Source of the DNA: a virus
Reading direction: 5' to 3' (one strand)
IMG/VR virus record: IMGVR_UViG_3300035701_000341
Span: 1-21,554 of that record
Length of the DNA: 21,554 nt
Shown: positions 3-18,748 of the stretch, piece after piece
Position numbering within the stretch: the stretch's first letter is position 1
Layout: every line of letters begins with the position of its first letter
Position numbers and translations under genes: made by a program
The notes under the pieces: model-generated
The model's database searches: none
What the model was told of the DNA's origin: nothing
What the model saw: the letters and a program-made list of their open reading frames with translations, nothing else

Positions 3-1214
3 GAAGGATACCGTTGCATAGGTATAGAATTGGAAAAAACTTTCGTGGATTTAACAACGAAGAATATTGCCCTTCACGCCAGGAAGCTGGCGGCCCTGGG
101 CTGCCCGCAGCCGGTGATAATCCAGGGGGATTCTCGGAACTTATCGGCTCTACTGCAGGAGGCGGACTTGATTGTGTCGTCGCCGCCATTTATGGAAACC
201 GGCACAGGCGCAGATAAGGAAAGTCATAATCGGCAAGTCATAACGAGTGGCATTCCAACACATCGGAAAGGCGTGGCCATAGGTTCTACTGATTATGGCA
301 CTTTTCCCGGTCAGTTAGGAGCTATGAAGCCGGGTAGCGTGGACGCAATCCTATCGTCGCCGCCATACGCACAGACCTTGAAGGGCGACGGCACGCAGGC
401 CGAGACTGCCGCCGAGTCCAGAGCCAAGAGAATCACCGAGGGCGGGTCGTTAGGCCAGAGCCAGCGGACGCAGGGCTACGGCAGCAAGGGCAATCTCGGC
501 AACCTCAAGCCCGGCGATGTCTCGGCGATTATATCAAGCCCGCCGTATGAAGGAAGCCTATCATCTGGACAATGCGGTATTGATTTATCAAAAGCCGCCG
601 ATCCGAAAGATAGACGAAAACGCAACGACCATTCAAACGTATGCGTTGAACAACGCTACTCTCGAACGAAAGACAATCTCGGCAACTCTCAAGGGCCGAC
701 ATTCTGGGAAACCGCCCGCGATATAGTGGCGCAGTGCCTCCAGATACTCCGCCCCGGCGGATACGCAATCTGGGTAGTCAAAGACTTCGTCCGTGCAAAA
801 AAGCGTGTGGACTTCACCGGCGACTGGCGAAAACTCTGCGAAGCCGTAGGCTTCCAAACCCTCCACGAACATCACGCCATGCTATACAAAGAAGACCGCT
901 TCATCGCCTTCTGGGGCGAGGAGATCATCGACCGTACTAATCGCAACAGTTTCTTCCGAACCCTGACCAACAACAAAGCCGGTTGGGCCGCCTACTGGGA
1001 AATCGTCCCCGAAGATGAACGACAAGAATGGCTTGCCACAGCAAAAGAGCAACTACCCCCCGGCAAACGCCAGCACATCATTCTCGGCAAGGCCCAAGAA
1101 CTCGCCTTCAAAGATACCGCCGAACGCATCGAATCCTGGAACGACCACGTCCGCATTGATTTTGAAGTTGTACTCTGCACGAGGAAACCTATCGGAGCAC
1201 TGGCTCGGCTGTGA
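3..1214 (+). CDS. DNA methyltransferase (N4/N6 type), 5' end outside window, with three SSPP(F/Y) motifs
   Basis: Likely a SAM-dependent DNA amino-methyltransferase that modifies phage or host DNA. The frame is open to the window edge. The first visible residues, GYRCIGIELE, look like the segment just after the AdoMet-binding motif I, so the gene starts upstream and the TTG at 30 is not the true start. About 403 residues are visible. Numbering from that TTG, GDSRN lies at 33-37, and the catalytic motif IV appears three times: SSPPF (50-54), SSPPY (109-113) and SSPPY (169-173), spaced about 60 residues. A phrase like G-N-L-G-x-x-K-P-G precedes copies two and three, with a degenerate fourth copy near 216. 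LRPGGYAIWVVKDF (240-253) fits the conserved strand after motif IV, and FEVVLCTRKP is a normal end for this family. The order motif I then motif IV is seen in several MTase classes. Target sequence and methylated base cannot be read. Confidence 0.85.
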   Translation, partial: EGYRCIGIELEKTFVDLTTKNIALHARKLAALGCPQPVIIQGDSRNLSALLQEADLIVSSPPFMETGTGADKESHNRQVITSGIPTHRKGVAIGSTDYGTFPGQLGAMKPGSVDAILSSPPYAQTLKGDGTQAETAAESRAKRITEGGSLGQSQRTQGYGSKGNLGNLKPGDVSAIISSPPYEGSLSSGQCGIDLSKAADPKDRRKRNDHSNVCVEQRYSRTKDNLGNSQGPTFWETARDIVAQCLQILRPGGYAIWVVKDFVRAKKRVDFTGDWRKLCEAVGFQTLHEHHAMLYKEDRFIAFWGEEIIDRTNRNSFFRTLTNNKAGWAAYWEIVPEDERQEWLATAKEQLPPGKRQHIILGKAQELAFKDTAERIESWNDHVRIDFEVVLCTRKPIGALARL

Positions 1215-1278
1215 GATAAATCCAGAGTACGTCCAGATAGCTGAGAAAAGACTCGCAAACAAAGAGGCAATGTTCTGA
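1197..1278 (+). pseudogene. Remnant C-terminus of a second DNA methyltransferase
   Basis: In a different frame from the upstream gene, this stretch encodes EHWLGCEINPEYVQIAEKRL followed by ANKEAMF and a stop at 1276-1278. That is the classic 3' end of a DNA methyltransferase whose AdoMet-binding region is C-terminal. No catalytic motif lies upstream in this frame. The preceding gene already has its own normal ending (FEVVLCTRKP), then reads a few unrelated residues before stopping inside this fragment. I infer a deletion or recombination that fused the 3' end of a different methyltransferase gene here. A programmed or sequencing frameshift is less likely, because the two frames would then give a duplicated AdoMet-site region. 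Confidence 0.6.
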
Positions 1279-3068: not shown

Positions 3069-6000
3069 TTAAAAGTAAAAGGCCGATGTTGGTTTCTTCT
3101 TTTGGGTTTTGCGCATCTGCGCAAGGATTTGACTTACCTGTATAGTTCCAGGTAATCCCAGCCCTGTTCCTGTCGTCAAGACCATAAACTCAAGAGCGTG
3201 CAGAATCTTTTTGTCTGGGTCCTTCGTCTTCTTGAGCGTGTTCAGTTTATCAATAATTTGCTGTGCTACCGCGATAGTCGGTACGGGCATTGACCCGTAT
3301 TGTATAGCGCCGACGCCTTGCGAAATGAATGGAACATTCTGAAGTCCGTTCACCACTACCTCCTCAACGAATGTTTCCGACCAGTCTTCGGTATCTTCGC
3401 CCGTGAACATGGCGACAATTTCTTTAGAGAGGCGTCGGAGTCCCATTTCGGCGAATCCGGCCATAGCAAGCCAGAAGAACATATTGGCCATTTGTGCATA
3501 GTTTTTCGTTTTGATTCCGTTTCGCAGAAAATCATGTCTGATTAACGACGAGCGGTTCAACATAAAGGACTGGAATTGAAGAAGTAGTCGGTCAATGCTC
3601 TTGTTGCCGGTAATCGTCCCTCGCGTAAAAGCTGGCGGCAAGTCCTTGAAAAACGCAGACGATTGTGTGCGCCGCAAAATGAGTTGGGCGTAGTCAATCG
3701 CGTCTTGGTTCGGTGTGCCGAAGTCTATTTCAAGTCCATGTTCCGCCAAATACTTTTTGTACGCACCGATAGTTATTGAACCAGCCGTGAGGCCATCAAT
3801 CTTTGTGAGTGCCCAGAACCCGGCCTTTTCCACCTTCTCAAGCGTACTGGCTCCGAAATCCAAGAGTTCAATGTCTCCGCCGAGTCGGTCTCGAATCTCC
3901 GGGAAATTAACCGAGAGGAACTCCCGCCATTGTCGGTTCGTCGCTATATCGAAGGCCCCCTCGAAGGCATAATGACCGATCATCGCCGCGCCGTCCAGTA
4001 GTGGTGTGGCGTTTACAAGTGCCGAAGACAACTTGAATCCGATTGTGGCTGCGCCTATATGTTTGCGCCAGACATCCAGAATCGGAATCGTCTTATTCCC
4101 TTGCGCCCGACCCTTGCGGGCCATCAAATCTATCCATGATCGGACTTCCTCTTGCCCAATGTCGCCGACCGCCTGCCGGTATTCTTCTGTTGCTGCAATT
4201 TCACCGAGTCGTTTTATGTCCGCCCCCATTTCAATCAAGTAGGCGGCGTTGTCTATATGCTGAAGAAATACCTCCATTGCGTTGATCTTGATTTTCTGTT
4301 TGCCGCCTGTGCGTGCGATTGTGAATTTGCGTTGCACGTTCTTTCGTAGTCCTTGCGGATATTCGATAAGCTGGTCGGTGAACATTTCTCTGGTTTCGTA
4401 GTCACTCATTGCCTCGAAGTCCGTCAGGAACGGCATATAGGCCCGAACTCTTTCGAGGGGAAGGTTATAGACGTTGTGCATCACGTCCTCAATGTCCTCC
4501 GTCAAGGAGTCGATTCCGTCCCGTATGGTTTCGTACAACTCCATTTCTTCCGGCGTCAGTTGCACTTGGTCTATTTGTTCCTGGGCATAACCAGTATCGA
4601 GCAATTTCTGATTTCCGTTTTCCTGCTCTCTCGCCCCGTGAACGCCGATCCTTTCAAAGTTGCCGTCATCAAGTCCCAATTCATCGGCCAAATGAATCAC
4701 GTCGGCGGCAGTATCGTCCAGTAGGTCTAAGTATCTCGACCATCCTCGGTCTATGGTTTTTTTGAAGATTTCAAAGTTCGCGCCTTTGTAGTCTTTCGTT
4801 CCGTCCAGAAGGTCGAAAAACACATCCATAGGAGTAACCGCCCGACCCTTTGCCGCCGCCCAATTCAATGACTGACTCAATGCGTTTTTGGCTCGGTCTT
4901 CGTAGTTGAGTTTGTCGCCTATCTCCTCCGGCCTTATCAACGTCCTATCATCTATTTTGACGGACTCCGCCTTAATTCTCGATATATCGCGCTTTTTGCC
5001 CTTCTCGTACTGTGAAACTTCAAGTGTCCTACGCAACTTGCCGAGCTTTTTCAGATTGTCTATACTTCGAGCAATGGCCTCAAGTTCCTCAATTGTATAG
5101 TCATTCAAAGGTTTCTTGCTCAGTTGTTCGACCAACCTTGTCGGCATGTCGGCGGTCTTCGACGGATTCCTCGCAAGGAAATCACGCTGGCTCTCTCGCT
5201 TTCTTAGGGTTGTCTTTGAGCGGAAAGAGGGGTCAATCGTATTTTTGATCGCCTCGATAGCCTCTCGATAGAGAATATCGACGGTCTTAGGCACTCTGCG
5301 TTTTATTGCACCGACGGCCTTTTTCATTCGCGCTTTGGCCCTGGCTTTTGCCCGTATGTCGGCCCGCAGTTCCTTGCGCCCGCCGGCGTAGGCCATCTTT
5401 GCGAATCGAGCGCCGCGCTTCAGGACGGCGGAGAGAACTTCGCCTACCGTCATCTTGGATTCATCTGTGGTGTGTATTGCCTCATACATCCGCTCCCGGA
5501 CATTTTCGATTGTGCGGACTTCATATTCTGTGCCGGGGACGATAAAGAATGGTCTTGGAACAGTTTCAAGCCCAAGCGTCTTGCGCAGGGCCTTAATATC
5601 ACCCCAGTCGGCGTTCGCCCACGCCATGTCGTTTCGGGTCTTGATTTTGTTCTCATCAAGGCGCCGCAAAAGGTCTGTTTCGAGCCAGTTCAGATATTCT
5701 TCGGCCTCACCTTTGGTCATTTCGATTTCGGTGCGGTTTGTGGGCCATCCCTTTTCTTTGAATCCCTCGATGTCTTTCGTTGTCCAGTCCATCGCGTCGG
5801 CGATTCTCGCCTTCATTCCAGGGGTAACATTGCCGATATAGAGTTTCGGTTTGACTATTTCCGCAGCCTCGACTTCAAGTTTTGCCTCGGCAACTTTTGC
5901 CTCTTCGCGCGTCTCAAGTTCTTCTGGCATCGTTGGGGCGGGCTGTTCTTCAAACTCTCTAAGGGGGGCATCTATTCGCTTCCGCTCGGTTTGTAGCTTC

Positions 6001-7634
6001 TGCATCCTTTCTGTTGCGTCGGCATAATCTGTCACAAGATTTCGTATTGTTTCTTGCTGGTTTTCGGGAAGCGTTTCTATGTCTATCAACTCGCCGACAG
6101 CCTTTGGCGACAAATCTGTTATGTCGTTTGGATTCAGTCCGGTAATTTCTACTAACTCTGGCACTAATTTGGACCTAATGTTCTCTCTGTAATCCTCAAC
6201 CTCAACGTATCTCTCTATTAAGTCATCCCTGATTGCTTTATCTATTATTTCCCCTCCCATCCCCTTCTTCGCAGCCGGGGCGGAAGGGGCGGCAGTCTCG
6301 CCCCCTATGGGACCTGCGGCCTGGGGGGTAGGAACGGTAGGCTCGGCGGGTTTTGAAGGCTCCTGCGCGGGAATAACCGCTTCTTCGGGGGGCTTCTGGG
6401 CAACGCCAGTGGGCTTCTCCGTGGTCTCTGGATAAACGTCGGCCAGTATATCCGCCCTCGTCTGGTCAATTACAGAGACCATCTCGTTTCTTGCCTGTTC
6501 ATCCGGCATTGCTCGAACAGAAGCCTCTATCTTGTCCAAGCGAATCAGTTGCTCCTCTTTGGACACAGTAGGACCCGTCTTTTGAACCATATACCCGAAT
6601 CCACTGAACCCTCCAGCCATTGCAAGTTCCATAATTCCGCCCGCCCCCATAGCGGAGCGAACATTCTCAGACCACGCCTGAGAACGGTCGGTAAAGACCC
6701 AGCGCCAGAAATTGCGATTGAACTCCTGAGAACCTTCCTCTGCCGTGCCTCGGAAGAACGTCTTTGTTGCTTCCCAAACAACTTCTGGGACACCCTTACT
6801 AACTATCTGGCGGGCGTTCTTGAAAAGGCCGAGTTTCCTGCCTAATGTCCACTCCTCAATTATCGCTTCACCAATTCCCGACAACGTCGCTTGGGCAAAA
6901 GCGGGCAGAACTTCCGTCCCATCCTTTCTGGCATCCGCATAAACTTCACCCGAAATTGGCAATGCCATAGCCGCTATAGCAAGAGGAGTTCCCCCGACTA
7001 ATGTTCCAAGTACGCCCTCCATCATCAAAGGGGCCGACTCCAACAAACCTTGAACGAGAAACTTCGGGTTCGCGACGTATGCTTTCAAAGTTTCTACGTA
7101 ACCGAGTCCAGACTGAACTTGCGGCGCTTCCTCTGGATGTTCTTCGTAGTATCCTTGAACGCCGACCAACATCATATCCGACCACTCAAGTAACTGGTCG
7201 GCATTTTCGTTTGCCCATTTATAGACCGAGGGCAAGAATCTCTCTACGAACATCGGGCGTTTCACCCACCTTCGTTTCCTTGCCTCGCCTTCTTTGAATA
7301 GTTCGGCGGCCATCTTGCCCTGGCCTGCCAAAGTCTTGACCATCCCCACGCCCATACGACGGACACCATCAATCAAAGTATCTTCCCAGGTTTTGACTTC
7401 TTGTTGAGACGCCTGAATCTTTCTGGCGGCATTGTCGGAAAGTTCCGTTCCAAAAAGAGCCGTATTGATTGTGGGCTCTAAATCGTAGGCGGTATCGGGC
7501 GGCATGTCCAATAATTGAGAATAGTAGATACTGTTCCCTATCCGGTCTTTGTCGTCCCTAAACTCCGTCACCCCCAAATCCGTTGTCACTTCGTGAGATG
7601 CCGGCCTACCATATTTTAGTGCGATGTTTGCCAT
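3069..7634 (-). CDS. Giant internal virion / DNA-ejection protein (T7 gp16 position), polyvalent-like
   Basis: This 1521-aa protein sits where T7 encodes gp16, the large ejected core protein that spans the host envelope during DNA entry. Sequence similarity to gp16 itself is not obvious. Visible regions: a hydrophobic helical stretch (about 195-231, GLLESAPLMMEGVLGTLVGG and onward), a Pro/Ala/Glu linker (about 398-458), coiled-coil-like charged helices (about 530-600), a highly basic Ala/Arg/Lys segment (about 750-781), and a C-terminal third with TIGFKLSSALVNATPLLDGA (about 1196-1215), RTQSSAFFKDLPPAFTRG (about 1320) and a hydrophobic MANMFFWLAMAGFAEMGLRR (about 1380). The C-terminal third recalls large polyvalent-protein domains of phages. 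No lysozyme or transglycosylase motif is evident. I choose the ATG at 7634, which overlaps the previous gene's TGA (TGATG), over the TTG at 7637. Confidence 0.75.
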   Translation of the reverse strand: MANIALKYGRPASHEVTTDLGVTEFRDDKDRIGNSIYYSQLLDMPPDTAYDLEPTINTALFGTELSDNAARKIQASQQEVKTWEDTLIDGVRRMGVGMVKTLAGQGKMAAELFKEGEARKRRWVKRPMFVERFLPSVYKWANENADQLLEWSDMMLVGVQGYYEEHPEEAPQVQSGLGYVETLKAYVANPKFLVQGLLESAPLMMEGVLGTLVGGTPLAIAAMALPISGEVYADARKDGTEVLPAFAQATLSGIGEAIIEEWTLGRKLGLFKNARQIVSKGVPEVVWEATKTFFRGTAEEGSQEFNRNFWRWVFTDRSQAWSENVRSAMGAGGIMELAMAGGFSGFGYMVQKTGPTVSKEEQLIRLDKIEASVRAMPDEQARNEMVSVIDQTRADILADVYPETTEKPTGVAQKPPEEAVIPAQEPSKPAEPTVPTPQAAGPIGGETAAPSAPAAKKGMGGEIIDKAIRDDLIERYVEVEDYRENIRSKLVPELVEITGLNPNDITDLSPKAVGELIDIETLPENQQETIRNLVTDYADATERMQKLQTERKRIDAPLREFEEQPAPTMPEELETREEAKVAEAKLEVEAAEIVKPKLYIGNVTPGMKARIADAMDWTTKDIEGFKEKGWPTNRTEIEMTKGEAEEYLNWLETDLLRRLDENKIKTRNDMAWANADWGDIKALRKTLGLETVPRPFFIVPGTEYEVRTIENVRERMYEAIHTTDESKMTVGEVLSAVLKRGARFAKMAYAGGRKELRADIRAKARAKARMKKAVGAIKRRVPKTVDILYREAIEAIKNTIDPSFRSKTTLRKRESQRDFLARNPSKTADMPTRLVEQLSKKPLNDYTIEELEAIARSIDNLKKLGKLRRTLEVSQYEKGKKRDISRIKAESVKIDDRTLIRPEEIGDKLNYEDRAKNALSQSLNWAAAKGRAVTPMDVFFDLLDGTKDYKGANFEIFKKTIDRGWSRYLDLLDDTAADVIHLADELGLDDGNFERIGVHGAREQENGNQKLLDTGYAQEQIDQVQLTPEEMELYETIRDGIDSLTEDIEDVMHNVYNLPLERVRAYMPFLTDFEAMSDYETREMFTDQLIEYPQGLRKNVQRKFTIARTGGKQKIKINAMEVFLQHIDNAAYLIEMGADIKRLGEIAATEEYRQAVGDIGQEEVRSWIDLMARKGRAQGNKTIPILDVWRKHIGAATIGFKLSSALVNATPLLDGAAMIGHYAFEGAFDIATNRQWREFLSVNFPEIRDRLGGDIELLDFGASTLEKVEKAGFWALTKIDGLTAGSITIGAYKKYLAEHGLEIDFGTPNQDAIDYAQLILRRTQSSAFFKDLPPAFTRGTITGNKSIDRLLLQFQSFMLNRSSLIRHDFLRNGIKTKNYAQMANMFFWLAMAGFAEMGLRRLSKEIVAMFTGEDTEDWSETFVEEVVVNGLQNVPFISQGVGAIQYGSMPVPTIAVAQQIIDKLNTLKKTKDPDKKILHALEFMVLTTGTGLGLPGTIQVSQILAQMRKTQKKKPTSAFYF

Positions 7635-9202
7635 CAAAATCTTTCGTAGAGTCGCCCTCTATACATATAGATTGTGCCTTTGGGCAATGATTGCATTTCC
7701 TCTGCTTTAGTAACGTAAACAACCTTGCCTTTGACGTTCTGAGAGATAGACAAGTCTTCAGTAATCGCATCAATGTCTTCGGCGCTCTGACCTTTGTGAG
7801 CATACCTCGGCGAACCAAGTGGCATGCCCGTTTCAAAAACGGCACCGAAGAATCGTCTTATGTATCCCTTCGATTGTTCCTCCTTCGGTCCCTTGAGAAT
7901 CGCTTCGATGCGCTCGTCCATAGTTTTTGGATCGTCCCAATAATTCTTGAGCACCGTTTCTATCTCAAAGTATTTCTGAACATATTCGGCGCGCTTCTTT
8001 GGGTGAGGAGCGCCTGTCTTTGGATCAAAGTATAAGTTGTCCAGACCGCCAAAATACTGTTTAGCGATTGGATGACTTGCCCGGTATCCCCTACTCGTTT
8101 TGCTTCTTGCCGCCAAGATAGTTACAAGGTGTTGTTCGTCTGGAAGACTAAACGCCGGCGCTCCGTTTGGGCCAGAGAGGTATTCATCGTGTATCTCCTT
8201 GAGAGTTACCGGGTCGCCCCTTTGCAACTTCAATAAGAGGTTACTCAGTTTTTCGTAGTCCTGTGTTACGGCGAACGGATTCTCGCCCTTCTCTTCCCAT
8301 ATCTGTCGCGCAGCAAGGAATGTTTGCATCAGTTTTGTTCTTTGCTTTTCACTGATTCCTTGTGTATTTAAGAGATCGGCCTGGAACTGTTGGACGCCGA
8401 TGTTCTTATCCGCCGCCTGTCTAAATACATCGTTGTAGATACTTTGTGTACTCTCTTGTTCAGCCCGCTCATTGTCCGCTATCTGGGCAATGGCGCGTTG
8501 TCGCAGGTCAACTGTATCGCCCGGAACGAGATATTTGGACCCTTGTATGGTGTCACCCTTAATGATTTTCAAGAACCCTTCCGGGTTGTTCATCGCCATT
8601 CTCTCGTAAAATGTTCGCTCCGCGTTGTGCCGAACCTTCAGGAGGTCGGGGGCCAATACTTTCTCATTCATTCCCTCAACTGTTCCGATTCCACTCCTGC
8701 CTAAACTCTCGAACGCGCTGATGTTGCCGGTTCGTTCCGCTTCGGCCATCCGGTCATAATATGTGCCCCACCATTTATCATCTATCCGTTGTTTTGTCTT
8801 CGTGGCGACGTAGTTCTCTATTTCCGGTTTCGCCACTTCAAGATATAAACCGAACTTTCTTGCCGCCAGTCCGTTCTTGAGATGAAGAGACTCTGGAATG
8901 TTCTCCATCTCATCCAAAGTCCGGGTCATCTCCTCCTGATAGGTATCTTCATCAGGATTTGCTTCGATCCGCGCTTGGAGTTCGTTTTGCTTCCTGCGCA
9001 ATTCCGCCGTAGCCTCTGAGTATTGCTGGTCGGCCTGCACCTGCCACATCTGGCCGCCGACCTGGAACATCGCCTCGCCCATCCTGCCTATCGCCGCCGC
9101 CATTTGGCCGGCGCCGGTATCGAAGTTCACCCGACCTGTAACATTGGGCCCCACGCCCGGCAACGTCTTTTCTGTTCGGTATATCGGAAATCGTCCAGCC
9201 AT
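7634..9202 (-). CDS. Internal virion protein (T7 gp15 position)
   Basis: This 522-aa protein is mainly alpha-helical and charged, between the gp14-like and gp16-like genes, the slot of T7 gp15 (ejectosome tube). The N-terminus (MAGRFPIYRTEKTLPGVGPN) is followed by a Gly/Ala/Met helix (about 28-58, TGAGQMAAAIGRMGEAMFQV and onward) and long helices with coiled-coil character (about 60-100). The C-terminus is a small beta-like segment (GKVVYVTKAEEMQSLPKGTI, then MYRGRLYERF) that could be a folded terminal knob. No catalytic motif is seen. It starts one base after the previous stop, with GGCGGTGA upstream, and its TGA overlaps the next start. The assignment rests mostly on synteny, size and helix content. 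Confidence 0.7.
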   Translation of the reverse strand: MAGRFPIYRTEKTLPGVGPNVTGRVNFDTGAGQMAAAIGRMGEAMFQVGGQMWQVQADQQYSEATAELRRKQNELQARIEANPDEDTYQEEMTRTLDEMENIPESLHLKNGLAARKFGLYLEVAKPEIENYVATKTKQRIDDKWWGTYYDRMAEAERTGNISAFESLGRSGIGTVEGMNEKVLAPDLLKVRHNAERTFYERMAMNNPEGFLKIIKGDTIQGSKYLVPGDTVDLRQRAIAQIADNERAEQESTQSIYNDVFRQAADKNIGVQQFQADLLNTQGISEKQRTKLMQTFLAARQIWEEKGENPFAVTQDYEKLSNLLLKLQRGDPVTLKEIHDEYLSGPNGAPAFSLPDEQHLVTILAARSKTSRGYRASHPIAKQYFGGLDNLYFDPKTGAPHPKKRAEYVQKYFEIETVLKNYWDDPKTMDERIEAILKGPKEEQSKGYIRRFFGAVFETGMPLGSPRYAHKGQSAEDIDAITEDLSISQNVKGKVVYVTKAEEMQSLPKGTIYMYRGRLYERF

Positions 9203-12700: not shown

Positions 12701-13772
12701 CGTAAATGCACCTGTCCTCGAAGAACGTCACGGTTGTCGGATAGCCTCGCACAGCCGACCACGACCCCTCCGACCAACGAGTATCGGCGCCGGTAGAAGC
12801 AAAGTTCTTGAGAACCGTCATATTGGCGACCTGACCCGTTACCCCCGTTACCCGGCAGATACCCTCTTGCGTACTGCTGTTGACGGTCAAATCCGCCGCG
12901 AATGTTCCACTCGTAGCAACGGTCACATTGATACGATGCTGGATATTGTCCTCTTCTTCGGTGAACGTAAATTGGACGGCTCGGAACCCATCTTTGGAAG
13001 TGTAGGATCGGCGGACTTCCCAGCTTACGCCGGCGTCTATACTGCGTTCAAGTCGAACAGTTCCCTTCCAACCCTGCTCGATATTCAAGGTGCAATCACC
13101 TTCCGTAAGGATCGCCGCGCCTATAACTCCCGTAGTTGTCCGGGACCCGCTTGTACTGGTAACGGCCCTCGGTTGTACGACGCGAAACAATGCCCCAACG
13201 TGGCCGGCCTGGAATACATTGCCGCCCGCGGCCGTCAAAGTCCCGGACCCGGTCGTGACGCTCGGTGTCAAAGTTATGCCATCACCTACTTCGAGGTCGT
13301 TGCGCTTTTTGAACGGGCCGTTCGTGAACGTAATCGCATCAAGAGAGAAGGAATTGGCACTGACTCTGCTCAGTTTGTACGGGGGATAGTTGGGATGGAC
13401 AATCCAGCAAACGTCGTTGCTCTGCTTGAATTGCAGGGCGGGCAGGTCCCCCACGGCATAGGGGGTATCGACCTTCAATCTCCTGCCGAGCGAATCCAGC
13501 ACCCGCGCCCCATTGTAGTAGAAGTACATGGCATAGTCTTCGAGGAGCAGGATGTAAGCGATACTATTGGAGTAGATAAACGAAACGACCCGGCCTGCCC
13601 CGTTGACGGTATCAATGTACTTCGTCCCCGGGCGCCGCTCCGCACTGCCGTAGATTTTCGGAATCATATTCTCAAGACGACGGCAGCCGGACTTATATTT
13701 GTCCACGTCGGAGCGGGCGTCGATTTGGGGACTTAACTCACCTGCGTTGAATGATATTACCGGATAATTCAT
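9744..13772 (-). CDS. Tail nozzle protein (T7 gp12-like) with large inserted GLUG beta-helix
   Basis: This 1342-aa protein is far above T7 gp12 (794 aa). The N-terminus is diagnostic of podoviral tail-tube-B/nozzle proteins: FNAGELSPQIDARSDVDKYK (8-27), then GCRRLEN and RRPGTKYI (about 45-52). The core includes TVTFFEDRCIYAGNPHQPQT (about 350) and AFWLTMSSDHRNAI (about 388). After AWARHLVG (about 534) the family pattern is interrupted and resumes only at TVKSVARIPSTNEDEIWLIV (about 1125), then GRTINGAQ. Between them is a ~590-residue domain of repeated beta-helix turns with GGF(V/L/I)G and N/S-C-Y motifs, ending in a typical GLUG-protein tail (ASYWDEMTS, FETAGWNLTTIW). The start ATG overlaps the previous TGA (ATGA). 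The protein should form the distal tail tube; the insert probably projects outward as an adhesin-like lobe. Confidence 0.85.
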   Translation of the reverse strand: MNYPVISFNAGELSPQIDARSDVDKYKSGCRRLENMIPKIYGSAERRPGTKYIDTVNGAGRVVSFIYSNSIAYILLLEDYAMYFYYNGARVLDSLGRRLKVDTPYAVGDLPALQFKQSNDVCWIVHPNYPPYKLSRVSANSFSLDAITFTNGPFKKRNDLEVGDGITLTPSVTTGSGTLTAAGGNVFQAGHVGALFRVVQPRAVTSTSGSRTTTGVIGAAILTEGDCTLNIEQGWKGTVRLERSIDAGVSWEVRRSYTSKDGFRAVQFTFTEEEDNIQHRINVTVATSGTFAADLTVNSSTQEGICRVTGVTGQVANMTVLKNFASTGADTRWSEGSWSAVRGYPTTVTFFEDRCIYAGNPHQPQTVWFSATGDYENMDEGTIDDSAFWLTMSSDHRNAILWISALEALIIGTSAGEWRIRSSDYDEPITPTNFSMKEQTTYGSKAIQALPVNDVILFVDSVGRKIREVAYVGDKDKYNAPDLTALAEHITETGIVAIAHQKNPDSILWAVRADGTLLSMTYEREQDVVAWARHLVGPSPVVESSVDLSVDYLKHYPILRELTEAEIPSKPSEPADTALVAATSVTTAVGLQAMAGAGHYSIGADIDLVGVTWTPIANFSGVVEGNGYTISNLSINAPTLSNRGLFTTIGSGCEVRNLNFVSCSVSGKQGNAILAAYADHKVNIKFSDISFTDCSVTGTEGFNACLFGGSVNQHASKLGNVNVWRCSTHNCNITSTETWGGGHSASLIACMGAENGVINIVDCYADGGTITAGCSAGLIYYLSGAPGYPVTIHSCYAAVNFTEGSHPIAQISSGFIDSITDGTIVSCYSGGAITVTTVAKIFDGAGFIGDATAYDVATSIINCYSNTTITVPAGSAGGFIAGVSDGGDFPLTITRCYTTSSITFTSATTGSKRCIGGFLGTAYFHPYSGENGTLLIERCWASGDITIAGVSSNSDRIGGFVGELDINYSSGDPLPTYIIRNCYTWSSIITGANSFEIGGFVGVYNFEPWDEEGHPGFQIQNCYCAQTNSKYGSGLSGQITGGIYDVHGFLGYNYTATNWVVTASYWDEMTSVPVNDVSDDVRTPYHALAKTTGWLMTKSNFETAGWNLTTIWEMADGGTTPGIGAIGTVKSVARIPSTNEDEIWLIVGRTINGAQMQMLEQMQPRNFGDPEDAWFVDCGLSYDGAPEDTFLGLEHLEGEEVVILGDGAVFPRQVVADGQIVLPNTVSKCIIGLPFRYVLKPMRFDILTQHGTTKGSLKKISEVVISFFETSLAKYGIDENNLFEIDWRTDEAYGEPPALFTGDKVVVHEGGFSVEDSIVISGDEPAPCTIRAIVPRIEITGR
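10395..12170 (-). other. GLUG-type beta-helix domain inserted in the nozzle gene
   Basis: Within the nozzle protein, about residues 535-1125 consist of at least eight turns of roughly 40-55 residues. They share a glycine-hydrophobic phrase (AGFIGDATAY, GGFIAGVSDG, GGFLGTAYF, GGFVGELDI, GGFVGVYNF, HGFLGYNYT) followed by a strand ending in N/S/R-C-Y/W (NCYSN, SCYSG, RCYTT, RCWAS, NCYTW, NCYCA). The start (AGHYSIGADIDLVGVTWTPI, then GNGYTISNLSI) and end (SYWD... GW...W) are standard for bacterial GLUG surface proteins. Hand counts of sampled lines gave about 35% and 43% GC inside the insert, against 70% in one N-terminal nozzle line. This suggests, but does not prove, acquisition from another source. 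Confidence 0.8.
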
Positions 13773-14755
13773 TTGCGTCTCCTCACATAAACGCCGCCCG
13801 TCTCCACGGTTGCCGGAGCAACTCCGAAGGCACCGCGAGTAGCGCCTTGCTGGGCGGTTTCATCATAGACGTTCAACACCTTGTACTGGGCCGACACCAG
13901 GCCCGCCACGGTCGTTTCTAAGGCGTGGACAGCGACCCAAAGAGCGGTGACTTCGAATTCGCAGTCGAAAGCACCCGTGGTCGTTGTGGAAGTCGTTGAG
14001 GAGCTGCTGGAGCTGGTCGAGCCTGTCGTCGTCGTCGAGGTTGTAGAACTACTTGTGGATGCAGTCGTCGATGATGAGCTTGTGGAGGTGCTCGTCGAGG
14101 ATGAACTTGCTGTCGTGGTGCTTGATGATGACGTTGTGGAACTTGAAGCCGTTGAGGTCGTCGTTGAGGACGAGGTGGTGCTCGATGTACTTGATGACGT
14201 TGACGACGACGAACTTGTGGAGGTCGTTGTTGACGACGTGCTTGAACTGCTTCCCCCCGCCGATGTTGTGCTGCTCGTTGAGGAGCTGGTCGAGGACGTA
14301 CTTGACGAACTTGTCGTCGTTGAACTACTCGTAGAGGAGGTTGATGCAGTGCTACTCGTCGTAGAAGTAGTCGAAGAGGTCGAACTTGTGGAACTTGAAG
14401 TTGATGAGGTCGTGCTCGATGTCGTAGAACTTGTCGAGCTGCTTGTGCTTGATGATGTAGAACTGCTTGTCGAGGAAGTGCTGGACGATGTTGAGGTACT
14501 ACTCGTTGTCGAGGAGGTCGAACTGCTGCTCGATGAACTGGTGGATGATGTTGAGGAAGAAGTCGATGAAGATGAACTCGTTGTCGAAGACGAACTACTT
14601 GTACTGGAACTGGAGGAAGATGTCGTTGTGGTCGTTGTGGTCGTTGTGGTCGTTGTGGTGGTACTCTCGACTACAACTAATGGAGCCCCCAAGACCCATT
14701 CATAAAGGGTCTGGGTTTCAACGGGTTGTCCGAGTATCCATTCCTGTTGTGCCAT
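13769..14755 (-). CDS. Mucin-like Ser/Thr-rich virion-associated protein
   Basis: This 328-aa protein has three parts. A short N-terminus carries a tandem motif, EWILGQP and EWVLGAP (about 5-25). Residues about 31-262 are almost only Ser and Thr, beginning with a run of 14 Thr, with rare Ala/Gly breaks. A folded C-terminus of about 65 residues follows (GAFDCEFEVTALWVAVHALE, then TTVAGLVSAQYKVLNVYDET, ending YVRRRK). Such a tract would be extended and is an ideal O-glycosylation stalk, although no site can be proved from sequence. Many different Ser and Thr codons are used, so this is not a pure recent microsatellite and the amino-acid content seems selected. The gene overlaps its neighbours on both sides (TGATG and ATGA), placing it between the beta-helix protein and nozzle genes. 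It is probably a virion appendage or linker. No known family is recognised. Confidence 0.75.
   Translation of the reverse strand: MAQQEWILGQPVETQTLYEWVLGAPLVVVESTTTTTTTTTTTTTTSSSSSSTSSSSSTTSSSSSTSSSTSSTSSSSSSSTSSTTSSTSTSSSTSSTSSSTSSSTSSSTSSTTSSTTSSTSSSTSSTSSTTSTTSSTASTSSTSSSTTTSSSSTSSTSSSTSSTTSAGGSSSSTSSTTTSTSSSSSTSSSTSSTTSSSTTTSTASSSTTSSSSTTTASSSSTSTSTSSSSTTASTSSSTTSTTTTGSTSSSSSSTTSTTTTGAFDCEFEVTALWVAVHALETTVAGLVSAQYKVLNVYDETAQQGATRGAFGVAPATVETGGVYVRRRK
13977..14662 (-). repeat. Low-complexity Ser/Thr-coding tract
   Basis: About 685 bases whose - strand codons are nearly all Ser (TCN, AGY) or Thr (ACN). Imperfect trinucleotide periodicity is strong, but third positions vary, giving no long perfect repeat except the 9-base unit at 14622-14657. 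On the + strand the same bases read as Val/Glu/Leu/Asp-rich nonsense, which explains the long spurious + strand ORF here. Confidence 0.85.
14622..14657 (-). repeat. Four perfect copies of a 9-bp unit within the Thr run
   Basis: GTCGTTGTG on the + strand occurs four times in a row at 14622-14630, 14631-14639, 14640-14648 and 14649-14657. On the coding strand each unit is three Thr codons (together CACAACGAC in another phase). This is a candidate slippage site that could change stalk length in multiples of three residues without a frameshift. Confidence 0.8.
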
Positions 14756-16578: not shown

Positions 16579-17670
16579 TTATTTCCAGACGCCGGGATTC
16601 TTCTGCCAATATTCTATGTACTGGGCGAAAGTCATTGTCTGTTTGCTTGCTATGAATTCACGATCCGCCTTGCAGGTCGTTCTGACGTTCTCGGCGACTT
16701 GTTCGATAATCTCCGGTCGGTCTTTCTTCTTGCGAAGGTCGGCCTGTTGACTCAGCGAGTCTTCGCCGCCGACGCAGTAGGCCGCGATGAAGGAATTGCG
16801 CACGTAGTCCGTATGATTCCACGAGTAACCTCTCTTGTCCGCAAAGTGCCAGCACCAGGCGTCGGGGTGAATCCAGTGCGGGTATCCGCAGGTCGATTGC
16901 TTCCAGTTGATGTAGGACTCCCCGCCGCCGTAGATTCCGAGTTCCGGGTTCCAGCCGCCCAACTCCTCAATAGTGGTTCGGGGGCACATCATTCCGCAGG
17001 TGCTCATCACACAGACTTTGTATGGTTGCGTCTTGAAGTGGGGAACGCGCTTCCCATCCGCCCGGACGGTAATATCGTTCTGGTGCGAGCAGAACTGGTA
17101 TCCGAAGAACTTCTCCTGAACCCTATACTCAAGACAGTTGGAGTCCAGCATATAATTGATGTACGCGTGGACGCCGCCAACCTTCTCTTCCGGGGGATTG
17201 CGGAGAAACTCCACCATCTTTCGCACGGAGTCCCTTTTCATAATGCAGTGCGCATCCAAGAAGAACAGGTACTTGCCCGTACTGTTGGCGATCCCGCAGT
17301 TCTTCGCGTTCCAGTGACTCAGTTTATCATCGTAGATGACGTACTTGATTTTCCCCTGCCGGAACAGGTACGTGCCGAGAATCTTGCCGCTGTCCGGCCT
17401 TCGGAAGAAGTTCCGTTGCTCCATCGGGTACGAACGCGGCTTCGCGTAGCACTCAAACTTCTCGTGACTCTCCAAGAAGAAGTTCTTGCCGTGAACCGGG
17501 ACAGCCCTCTGCCCCGCCGTGCAAAGCAGACTATCGTCGCTGCGATTATCGACTGCAATTATCTCGTAATCGCAGAACCCCTCAAGTTCCTCGACCATAC
17601 TCTGAATGGTCAAGGCTACTTGAGCCATCTCGTTGCAGAAGGGGATCACTACGCTGACTTCTTTGCTCAT
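16579..17670 (-). CDS. Family 2 glycosyltransferase, GalNAc-transferase-like
   Basis: This 363-aa GT-A-fold enzyme is expected to move a sugar from a nucleotide-sugar to an acceptor in the cytoplasm. Motifs: VSVVIPFCNE (5-14) and IIAVDNRSDD (37-46) of the GT2 nucleotide-binding fold; NAKNCGIANSTGKYLFFLDA (121-140) followed by H-C, giving a metal-binding D-A-H at 139-141; GGWNPELGIYGGGESYINWK (238-257), then CGYPHWIHPDAWCWHF (261-276). The FLDxHC and GGxxxxxxxYGGGE arrangement recalls polypeptide GalNAc-transferases (FLDSHCE, WGGEN), though overall identity cannot be judged. I place the start at MSKEVSV (17670), because its ATG overlaps the upstream TGA (ATGA) and the fold begins there; the longer frame to 17727 would add 19 unlikely residues. 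It neighbours another GT and a Ser/Thr-rich protein. Confidence 0.82.
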   Translation of the reverse strand: MSKEVSVVIPFCNEMAQVALTIQSMVEELEGFCDYEIIAVDNRSDDSLLCTAGQRAVPVHGKNFFLESHEKFECYAKPRSYPMEQRNFFRRPDSGKILGTYLFRQGKIKYVIYDDKLSHWNAKNCGIANSTGKYLFFLDAHCIMKRDSVRKMVEFLRNPPEEKVGGVHAYINYMLDSNCLEYRVQEKFFGYQFCSHQNDITVRADGKRVPHFKTQPYKVCVMSTCGMMCPRTTIEELGGWNPELGIYGGGESYINWKQSTCGYPHWIHPDAWCWHFADKRGYSWNHTDYVRNSFIAAYCVGGEDSLSQQADLRKKKDRPEIIEQVAENVRTTCKADREFIASKQTMTFAQYIEYWQKNPGVWK

Positions 17671-18317
17671 AGAATCAGTCCTGCTTTTTTGCGTTCCAGA
17701 AATATACGTTTGTCCTCTCCATGCCACTTATCGGCGCGATTGTACGTATCGTCAGGTCCGTACTTCTGCCACTCATGCCTGAACAAGACCATCGGGTAGT
17801 GCTTCAACGCTTTCCGATGAACCAGCACTGCATTATGTTCCCTGTCGGACCATGCGGCATAATGGGGCGGAGTGAGATAACCAAGATTATCATAGAGCAC
17901 CCGCCCTATGATGGGATGGCCGATGCGATTCCTTCTGGTCCGCCCATCGTTGAAGTGGATTGCCCCGTTGAGTTTCGGCCACGATTCCAGGTATGCCGCC
18001 GCCAATATACAGTCGTAAGATTCGCACTGGGGCAAAAGGTCGTCCGCGATAGGCATTATGACATCGAATTGCCTGTCCTCTAATCCGCTGTTGTATGCCT
18101 CGATTTTGTTCTTGTGTGGTTTGTAATAATAGGCGACTTGTTGAAGTCCATTCAAATACAACTGCATGGCCGGATTGTTCATCGACCAGTCATCGTCGTC
18201 CATCGCAACAAGGAAGATGGCTTCGTGGTGGGGCGAGAGCAAGGTCAGCCACAGTTCAAGAGTTCTCTTGAACCAGTCGGGGCGGCCCCTGGTGGGGTAC
18301 TTGAACAAAATCTTCAT
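17667..18317 (-). CDS. Glycosyltransferase-like protein (GT-A fold)
   Basis: This 216-aa protein begins MKILFKYPTRGRPDWFKRTL, typical of phage- and metagenome-encoded GT-A-like proteins. A run of four Asp (40-43, VAMDDDDWS) and a second acidic motif, MPIADDLLPQ (88-97), could bind metal and nucleotide-sugar. GHPIIGRVLYDNLGYLTPPH lies in the middle and WHGEDKRIFLERKK near the C-terminus. It lacks membrane helices. Acceptor and donor are unknown. The start at 18317 is chosen because its ATG overlaps the methyltransferase stop (ATGA) and the conserved fold begins immediately; a start at 18374 would add 19 residues read from within the upstream gene. It likely works with the second glycosyltransferase downstream. 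Confidence 0.7.
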   Translation of the reverse strand: MKILFKYPTRGRPDWFKRTLELWLTLLSPHHEAIFLVAMDDDDWSMNNPAMQLYLNGLQQVAYYYKPHKNKIEAYNSGLEDRQFDVIMPIADDLLPQCESYDCILAAAYLESWPKLNGAIHFNDGRTRRNRIGHPIIGRVLYDNLGYLTPPHYAAWSDREHNAVLVHRKALKHYPMVLFRHEWQKYGPDDTYNRADKWHGEDKRIFLERKKAGLIL

Positions 18318-18748
18318 TCCACCATTTGCCACTTGAAACCGCCCTCCCATTTGAAGTCCACGTTCAATTCGCATCCGGTCAGTCGGCGCTCGATGCCCAA
18401 AGACGGGTTGCGCTTCCTGACGAAGAGCAACCGGCCCCGGTCAACGACTACGAACCAGTTGTGGTCTCGGCGCCCGAACATCAATTCCGCCTGCGGGGTG
18501 GGAAAGGATAGAATACCAGCCTTAGCAATGCGTATGAGTTCCGAGCATGCCAGACCAGGGTCGTTCGTGTGTTCGATAACATGGTGACAACGAGCATAGT
18601 CAAACTCCTTATCTTTGAACGGCATCTTTTCCATCGGGCAGAGTACGAACTTGCCCGGCATCGGAGTCCGTGGTACGAAAATGTCCGTATAGACATCATA
18701 TCCCTTTGCGGGACGTTTGCCGTCCCCTGAACCTATATCAATCTTCAT
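18314..18748 (-). CDS. Small SAM-dependent methyltransferase (class I, Methyltransf_11-like)
   Basis: This 144-aa protein starts directly with a SAM-binding loop: MKIDIGSGDGKRPAKGYDVY (1-20) contains G-x-G motif I and the acidic residue after beta-2. CPMEKMPFKDKEFDYARCHH (37-56), then VIEHTNDP, is the motif II / post-motif region typical of this superfamily. It is shorter than usual (200+ residues), lacking most of the C-terminal strands, but similar short versions occur beside glycosyltransferases in phages. Probable substrate is a sugar or other small molecule linked to the neighbouring GTs; DNA is unlikely because no (D/N/S)PP(Y/F) motif is present. AGGAG precedes the ATG, and the TGA overlaps the following GT start. 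Confidence 0.75.
   Translation of the reverse strand: MKIDIGSGDGKRPAKGYDVYTDIFVPRTPMPGKFVLCPMEKMPFKDKEFDYARCHHVIEHTNDPGLACSELIRIAKAGILSFPTPQAELMFGRRDHNWFVVVDRGRLLFVRKRNPSLGIERRLTGCELNVDFKWEGGFKWQMVE

Follow-up and report, generated by a model that had tools for sequence, protein, structure and literature searches.

The window analyzed here, a virus record of 21,554 bases (IMGVR_UViG_3300035701_000341), opens within a gene for an amino-methyltransferase in which the SPP[FY] motif, presumably motif IV, occurs three times within repeated modules that we call cassettes. The gene is one of 50 distinct open reading frames (ORFs) with at least two SPP[FYW] motifs, 168 copies in total at a median spacing of 57 residues, and related cassettes appear in different viruses at different positions along the protein. 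Comparison of these sequences leads us to a reading that we hold with about even confidence, namely, that these are multispecific phage amino-methyltransferases in which one SAM core would be combined with several exchangeable cassettes, each bringing its own motif IV and recognition element. The candidate modification is probably N4-cytosine or N6-adenine methylation of DNA, and SPP[YFW] would suggest N4-cytosine.

Layout of the methyltransferase gene

The contig begins inside the ORF, which therefore lacks its 5' end (Table 1), and motif X and motif I are missing from it. Both are present in a full-length relative, L001 (L001:3731-5188; 485 aa, 75% identical to the window ORF), which supplies DVFAGVGTT as motif I and also HPAK. 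The hallmarks of an amino-methyltransferase are a motif IV of the form [DNS]PP[YFW] and SAM motif I in one protein; the former is represented by SPP[FY], found three times in the window, and the latter is found in L001 and lies beyond the contig edge in the window. Head and tail phage proteins are encoded on the minus strand of the window.

A preliminary description of this DNA had reported three SPP[FY] motifs about 60 residues apart, a claim that proved correct and even understated. The spacings are 59 and 60 residues, and a chance origin is rejected, as three SPP[FYW] motifs arose in 0 of 50,000 residue shuffles of the window ORF and at least one in 206. The G-x-L-G phrase described before copies 2 and 3 is equally real (GQLGAMKPG and GNLGNLKPG), scoring above all 1000 shuffles. 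Copy 1 is without that lead-in, the score having been matched by shuffles in 84% and 38% of trials, and is preceded in the window ORF by the GDSR segment; across the family ORFs, a GDSR-type segment precedes the first copy only. In an alignment of the three units, the suspected repetition stood for the lead-ins of copies 2 and 3, which are alike, and did not extend to the variable stretches after the motifs, which are unrelated (score matched by 30%, 91% and 45% of shuffles). The supposed degenerate fourth copy makes better sense as the connector that closes the array and runs into the helix that follows (TFW...). The insert within the C-core is common to L001 and absent from the other five sequences in the first alignment.

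Table 1. Features of the methyltransferase gene at the start of the window (nucleotide positions)
Feature	Positions	Strand	Remark
Amino-DNA-methyltransferase ORF, 403 aa	3..1214	+	5' end lost at contig edge
N-core fragment with GIELE acidic motif (motif II-like), into first beta4-like strand	3..173	+	
GDSR, motif III-like, within N-core fragment	126-137	+	
Cassette 1 (VSSPPF, its SPPF 180-191; variable region 1, 192-293)	174..293	+	comparison with L001
Cassette 2 (lead-in YGTFPGQLGAMKPGSVDAILS, SPPY 357-368, variable region 2, 369-476)	294..476	+	
Cassette 3 (lead-in YGSKGNLGNLKPGDVSAIIS, SPPY 537-548, variable region 3, 549-656)	477..656	+	
Terminal connector YSRTKDNLGNSQGP, into C-core	657..698	+	
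C-core (TFW helix, LRPGGYAIWVVKDF, LHEHHAML, SFFR..., RIDFE)	699..1211	+	
Insert of ~57 residues within C-core	978..1148	+	alignment

A family of cassette methyltransferases

The family was collected by scans of IMG/VR viruses and with HMMs of the two core halves. Forty-three of the ORFs are intact at both ends, having HPAK and FFRRL-type ends, and these carry two (12 ORFs), three (14), four (9), five (4), six (1) or seven (3) copies; fragments and frame-broken loci (e.g., L033, L069, L090, L092 and L096) are left uncounted. Homologs with one motif, which the preliminary description had named as something that would speak against its claim, were not found among the intact ORFs (0/43 have a single SPP[FYW]). 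In L086, a lone GFPPF precedes an insert of another kind; this insert has some look of a helix-turn-helix, a reading that we do not adopt, with no Pfam match and a PHROGs match to an unknown family only (0.0015).

All 11 relatives scanned match PF01555 (N6_N4_Mtase) at E ≤ 0.01, the best at E 8e-18. L037 scores 34.1 bits, above the cut-off of 26.7 bits, and the truncated window protein alone 18.4 bits, below it. No C5-cytosine family match was obtained for the window or the 11 relatives, the families matched being N6_N4_Mtase and others of amino or generic type. Motif I precedes motif IV in L001 and its relatives, which is not the order of the beta class.

Two pattern scans of genome contigs for cellular homologs with cassettes, a limited search, gave 54 and 45 stretches, of which none was confirmed. 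For isolate phages, the tblastn queries were the window, L002, L009, L018, L037, L056 and L094; no place covered 80% of a query, and the matches fall mostly in the N-terminal, motif I part. A plasmid search gave no match with L002 and one Streptomyces match with L009. Used alone as a query, window unit 2 led to two confirmed loci and the ADGC cassette to 11, and the three ORFs inspected from the loci of the latter (L112, L120 and L121) all belong to the cassette methyltransferase family.

One of these shows an unusual arrangement. L120 (L120:1745-3724) has four copies between its cores, three standard SPP[FY] and one SPPH, and three further SPPY cassettes, one of them of the L018.u4/L021.u1 kind, continue in the same frame past a complete C-core; a frame break lies near the N-terminus, which sits in another frame.

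Cassette structure and shuffling

Each cassette consists of a lead-in (YGxTxGQLGxMxxGxxDA), a beta4-like strand ending in V-S/T, SPP[FYW], a variable region with a median length of 35 residues and a YGxTxGQLG connector. Of 129 connectors located after the first motif in the 50 ORFs, 34 are terminal and 2 stand before in-frame inserts, while SPP comes next in all others. With only 2 internal ones among the 129 connectors lacking SPP, an array of dead copies around one live motif is not supported. The two, in L078 and L080, lack SPP because of the in-frame inserts. That of L078 (L078:2041-4047) is an HNH_3 endonuclease domain within the cassette array, at residues ~244-285 (Pfam E 1e-14); that of L080 (L080:1825-4023), ~80 residues long, comes after cassette 2, interrupts the array and has no match of its own among the Pfam matches listed.

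To compare the variable regions, we matched all against all at E < 1e-4, with three residue-shuffled controls. This yielded 102 pairs between proteins, none within proteins and none in any of the shuffled controls. After removal of cassettes shorter than 12 residues (168 to 166), clustering placed 79 cassettes in 24 families, the set relied on here (looser settings gave 27), and left 87 of 166 as singletons. The preliminary description had proposed either a duplication serving target recognition or activity of one copy only. Of the former, the link to recognition remains the best-supported idea, and simple tandem duplication was not seen: the matches sit in other viruses and at other positions, and the sole within-protein pair even at E < 0.01 is L040.u2/u3 (E 0.002). 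The absence of within-protein pairs is suggestive only, since 1.8 would be expected by random placement (P = 0.17).

Related cassettes usually sit at different positions. Fifteen of the 24 families have members in first as well as non-first slots, and 21 are represented in more than one slot class. A looser definition gave 113 pairs in complete proteins; the index differs in 60 of these whichever end it is counted from, a matching neighbor accompanies just 6, and in 71 the two cassettes resemble each other more closely than the cores do (the core comparison was reduced from 50 to 44 ORFs by leaving out the window, whose 5' end is lost, and five ORFs without HPAK). Examples of cassettes at shifted positions are L001.u1 = L016.u2, L018.u4 = L021.u1 and L018.u5 = L023.u1, and one cassette is found in three proteins (L013.u3 = L023.u4 = L028.u1). 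L018 and L025 have two cassettes in common (u5/u2 and u6/u3). Around the copies, lead-in and connector are kept at the protein level, with 29-43% DNA identity (ungapped) among the lead-ins of the window.

The closest comparison is that of the window with L001, in which DNA identity reaches 91% in the N-core, 85% in the C-core and 80% in variable region 2. Identity breaks at SSPPF/Y and at the connector YG, and falls to 31% (aa) and 41% (nt) for variable region 1 and to 36% and 46% for variable region 3, each against the same slot of L001. Variable region 3 retains weak protein similarity to its L001 counterpart (E 7e-4), so that region 1 is the plain case of replacement, while for region 3 the choice lies between replacement long ago and fast divergence. 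Variable region 2 of the window is common to L001.u2 and L005.u2, with 89% identity over 36 residues in L005, and unit 2 as a whole is 83% identical to that of L005 in protein and 74% in DNA.

State of the later copies and predicted structure

At positions -6, -4, -3 and -2 before SPP, the hydrophobic fractions are 0.87, 0.85, 0.89 and 1.0 in non-first copies (n = 118) and 0.94, 0.76, 0.92 and 1.0 in first copies (n = 50), with a background of 0.38; judged by this pattern, non-first copies keep the motif and the putative buried strand of the first. For the shared variable regions, pN/pS is 0.38 in first-first, 0.28 in first-other and 0.36 in other-other pairs, values biased low because the pairs were found by protein similarity, with a ratio no worse in later slots. 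With pS at 0.74-0.80 and pN below pS in 102 of 102 pairs, the estimates indicate that cassettes shared between viruses are conserved as protein in every slot class.

Structure prediction, to which the preliminary description had looked for the copy that reaches the SAM pocket, singled out one copy, and profile matches chose another. AlphaFold models of L001 (three copies; mean pLDDT 72.6) and L043 (two copies; 79.7), computed as monomers, have a confident class I methyltransferase core in which the first SPPF ends a strand (129-134 or 122-127). Only this first copy is docked; the later ones are disordered, with pLDDT mostly below 50. With HMMs of known type II methyltransferases, by contrast, it is the last copy that is aligned as motif IV, together with the C-core (window 162-297, L043 158-273 and L018 522-626). 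The models are evidence against simultaneous stable docking of the copies, and they are compatible with use of the first copy only, with alternate docking or with shallow alignment depth.

We consider it unlikely that the first, docked copy alone is catalytic, with later ones acting as accessory DNA-binding or tethering modules in which SPP[FYW] is kept for structure. Such a division of labor would agree with both AlphaFold models and with the restriction of the motif III-like GDSR segment to the first copy, but it sits poorly with later copies that retain SPP[FYW] along with the hydrophobic pattern of the strand, with the 15 cassette families found in first and later slots alike and with the profile matches to the last copy in three proteins.

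Use of a single copy at a time, with the others kept in frame as a reservoir from which recombination would refill the working slot, strikes us as quite improbable. Cassettes do change slots, L120 has its three extra cassettes beyond the C-core, and against L001 the core of the window protein is close, with strong differences in two of its three variable regions. However, the shared cassettes are conserved as protein and synonymous change in them is nearly saturated, so most of the sharing is old; the low DNA identity of the window lead-ins leaves little homology for recombination within the gene, and no recombinase is seen among the recurrent neighbors listed.

Very little credence can be given to action in trans, in which spare beta4/SPPY strands of an oligomer would complete the active sites of neighboring subunits: the complete members have a minimum of two SPP[FYW] and never one, and later copies keep the buried-strand pattern, but the models, being of monomers, lend this no structural support. 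A Trm11-like RNA methyltransferase carrying a repeat-bearing insert is the least probable of these readings. The nearest solved folds are Trm14, Trm11 and TrmN (Z ~19-20 over ~175 residues, a fold common among class I methyltransferases), which leaves an RNA substrate some small probability. Against it, all scanned members match the PF01555 DNA methylase, the THUMP domain that Trm11-type enzymes carry is absent from their Pfam matches, and the first matches of the family profile to PDB sequences are DNA modification methylases, via the motif X-I half. DNA modification methylases have another motif order, and beta-class enzymes the opposite one, so that a sequential fold search may miss them or, we infer, rank them low.

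Proposed mechanism

In the multispecific enzyme that we favor, the string of exchangeable cassettes would sit at motif IV of a single SAM-binding core. Outside the cassettes, the conserved core is short (median lengths of 106 residues between HPAK and SPP1 and of 112 for the part that runs from the FW helix to the end), with no separate recognition domain of the usual size, which makes the variable loop beside the catalytic motif the natural site of target choice. The variable region of each cassette would then be a target-recognition element, and the copies may take turns at the one SAM site or act across subunits. A more specific version, to which we give somewhat less than even confidence, is that the catalytic strand and motif have themselves been multiplied and shuffled, so that a single SAM-binding half-domain serves as many as seven cassettes of beta4 strand, SPPY and recognition loop, docking one after another, each for methylation of a different sequence and drawn from a pool traded among phages.

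If each cassette confers one specificity, phages could add a methylation target for ~57 codons rather than for a whole gene, and an array of two to seven cassettes from a common pool, in varied order, looks like compact marking of multiple sequences by one enzyme. Such an enzyme may protect phage DNA against several host restriction systems, with gain, loss and exchange of cassettes allowing phages to follow those systems. Were this true, the cassette pool would amount to a natural catalog of parts from which programmable amino-methyltransferases could be built. A structural question arises as well, that of how one active site is shared among several copies of the same core beta-strand.

Comparison with known systems

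Multispecific C5 enzymes have a single catalytic motif, which lies outside their recognition domains. The C5 methyltransferases of Bacillus phages (SPR, phi3T, rho11 and H2) combine one catalytic core with tandem target-recognition domains and several specificities (PMC8936443). The present proteins resemble them in being phage methyltransferases with one core and several tandem modules, which here would likewise confer multispecificity, and they differ in being amino-methyltransferases with the catalytic motif repeated in every module. We file the cassette methyltransferase as a candidate variant of the multispecific phage methyltransferases.

A second parallel is domain movement (DOMO) in Type I and Type IIG specificity genes, described as the movement of repeat-flanked recognition domains between positions within and between genes, with possible changes in their number (PMC3077401). 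The cassettes are similar in that the same variable module occurs at different positions, 21 of 24 families being in more than one slot class, and in that modules are flanked by repeats, the lead-in and YGxTxGQLG, conserved as protein. DOMO genes have one or two, rarely three, recognition domains, whereas here two to seven modules, each with motif IV, occur in phages. Tandem recognition domains in phage C5 enzymes and movement of recognition domains between positions are thus already known. In the literature searched, the coverage of which is incomplete, we found no account of amino-methyltransferases with motif IV inside a repeated, shuffled module.

The statement in the preliminary description that normal enzymes have one motif agrees with ordinary phage methyltransferases, which carry a single SPPY block. 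In the N6/N4 enzymes of Gordonia phage Petra (gp69) and Rhodococcus phage Mbo4, a block of the form GSxxxIVTSPPY-loop-YGxxGQxGLE is like one cassette; the lead-in and closing connector resemble this single block, LESGSVNCIVTSPPYFGLRDYGEPGQYGLE, and the cassette-like stretch GSVNCIVTSPPYFGLRDYGEPGQYGLE occurs once per ordinary enzyme. These proteins belong to the same broad amino-methyltransferase group; in them, a single SPPY is separated from the YG by a loop of five residues, and motif I lies at the C-terminal end, Petra gp69 showing the beta motif order (motif IV ... motif I). A Streptomyces sp. BHT-5-2 plasmid protein (L101:3944-4942) shares the family order of elements, from HPAK through motif I, GDAR and SPPY to a YGHDRANL connector, but it is more distant, with a single SPPY, a loop of ~24 residues and no cassette array.

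Neighboring genes and other features of the window

The only neighbor standing out is a DUF5131 (gp37/gp68-like) gene, which in 7 of 50 loci lies no more than ~1.5 kb from the methyltransferase (L001:1697-2437, L007, L021, L022, L025, L046 and L062); in L001, it matches PF07505 (3e-71). The recurrent neighbors of the 50 loci revealed no partner nuclease.

In the window, the stretch 1159-1278 (+), HWLGCEINPEYVQIAEKRLANKEAMF, overlaps the 3' end of the methyltransferase ORF in frame +1 relative to it. Its similarity to phrog_67 (E 0.0036) suggests what is left of the C-terminus of another methyltransferase, one of the beta class. The stretch was not found at such strength in other loci, which makes a recombination junction near the end of the gene likely.

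Further along the window, a 1522-aa protein without a Pfam match is encoded at 3069-7637 (-). Among the tail genes lies a 328-aa protein made up largely of Ser/Thr runs (13769-14755, -), and near it are a family 2 glycosyltransferase and a small methyltransferase (16579-17727, -, and 18314-18748, -). It is conceivable that the product with the Ser/Thr runs is a glycosylated virion protein.
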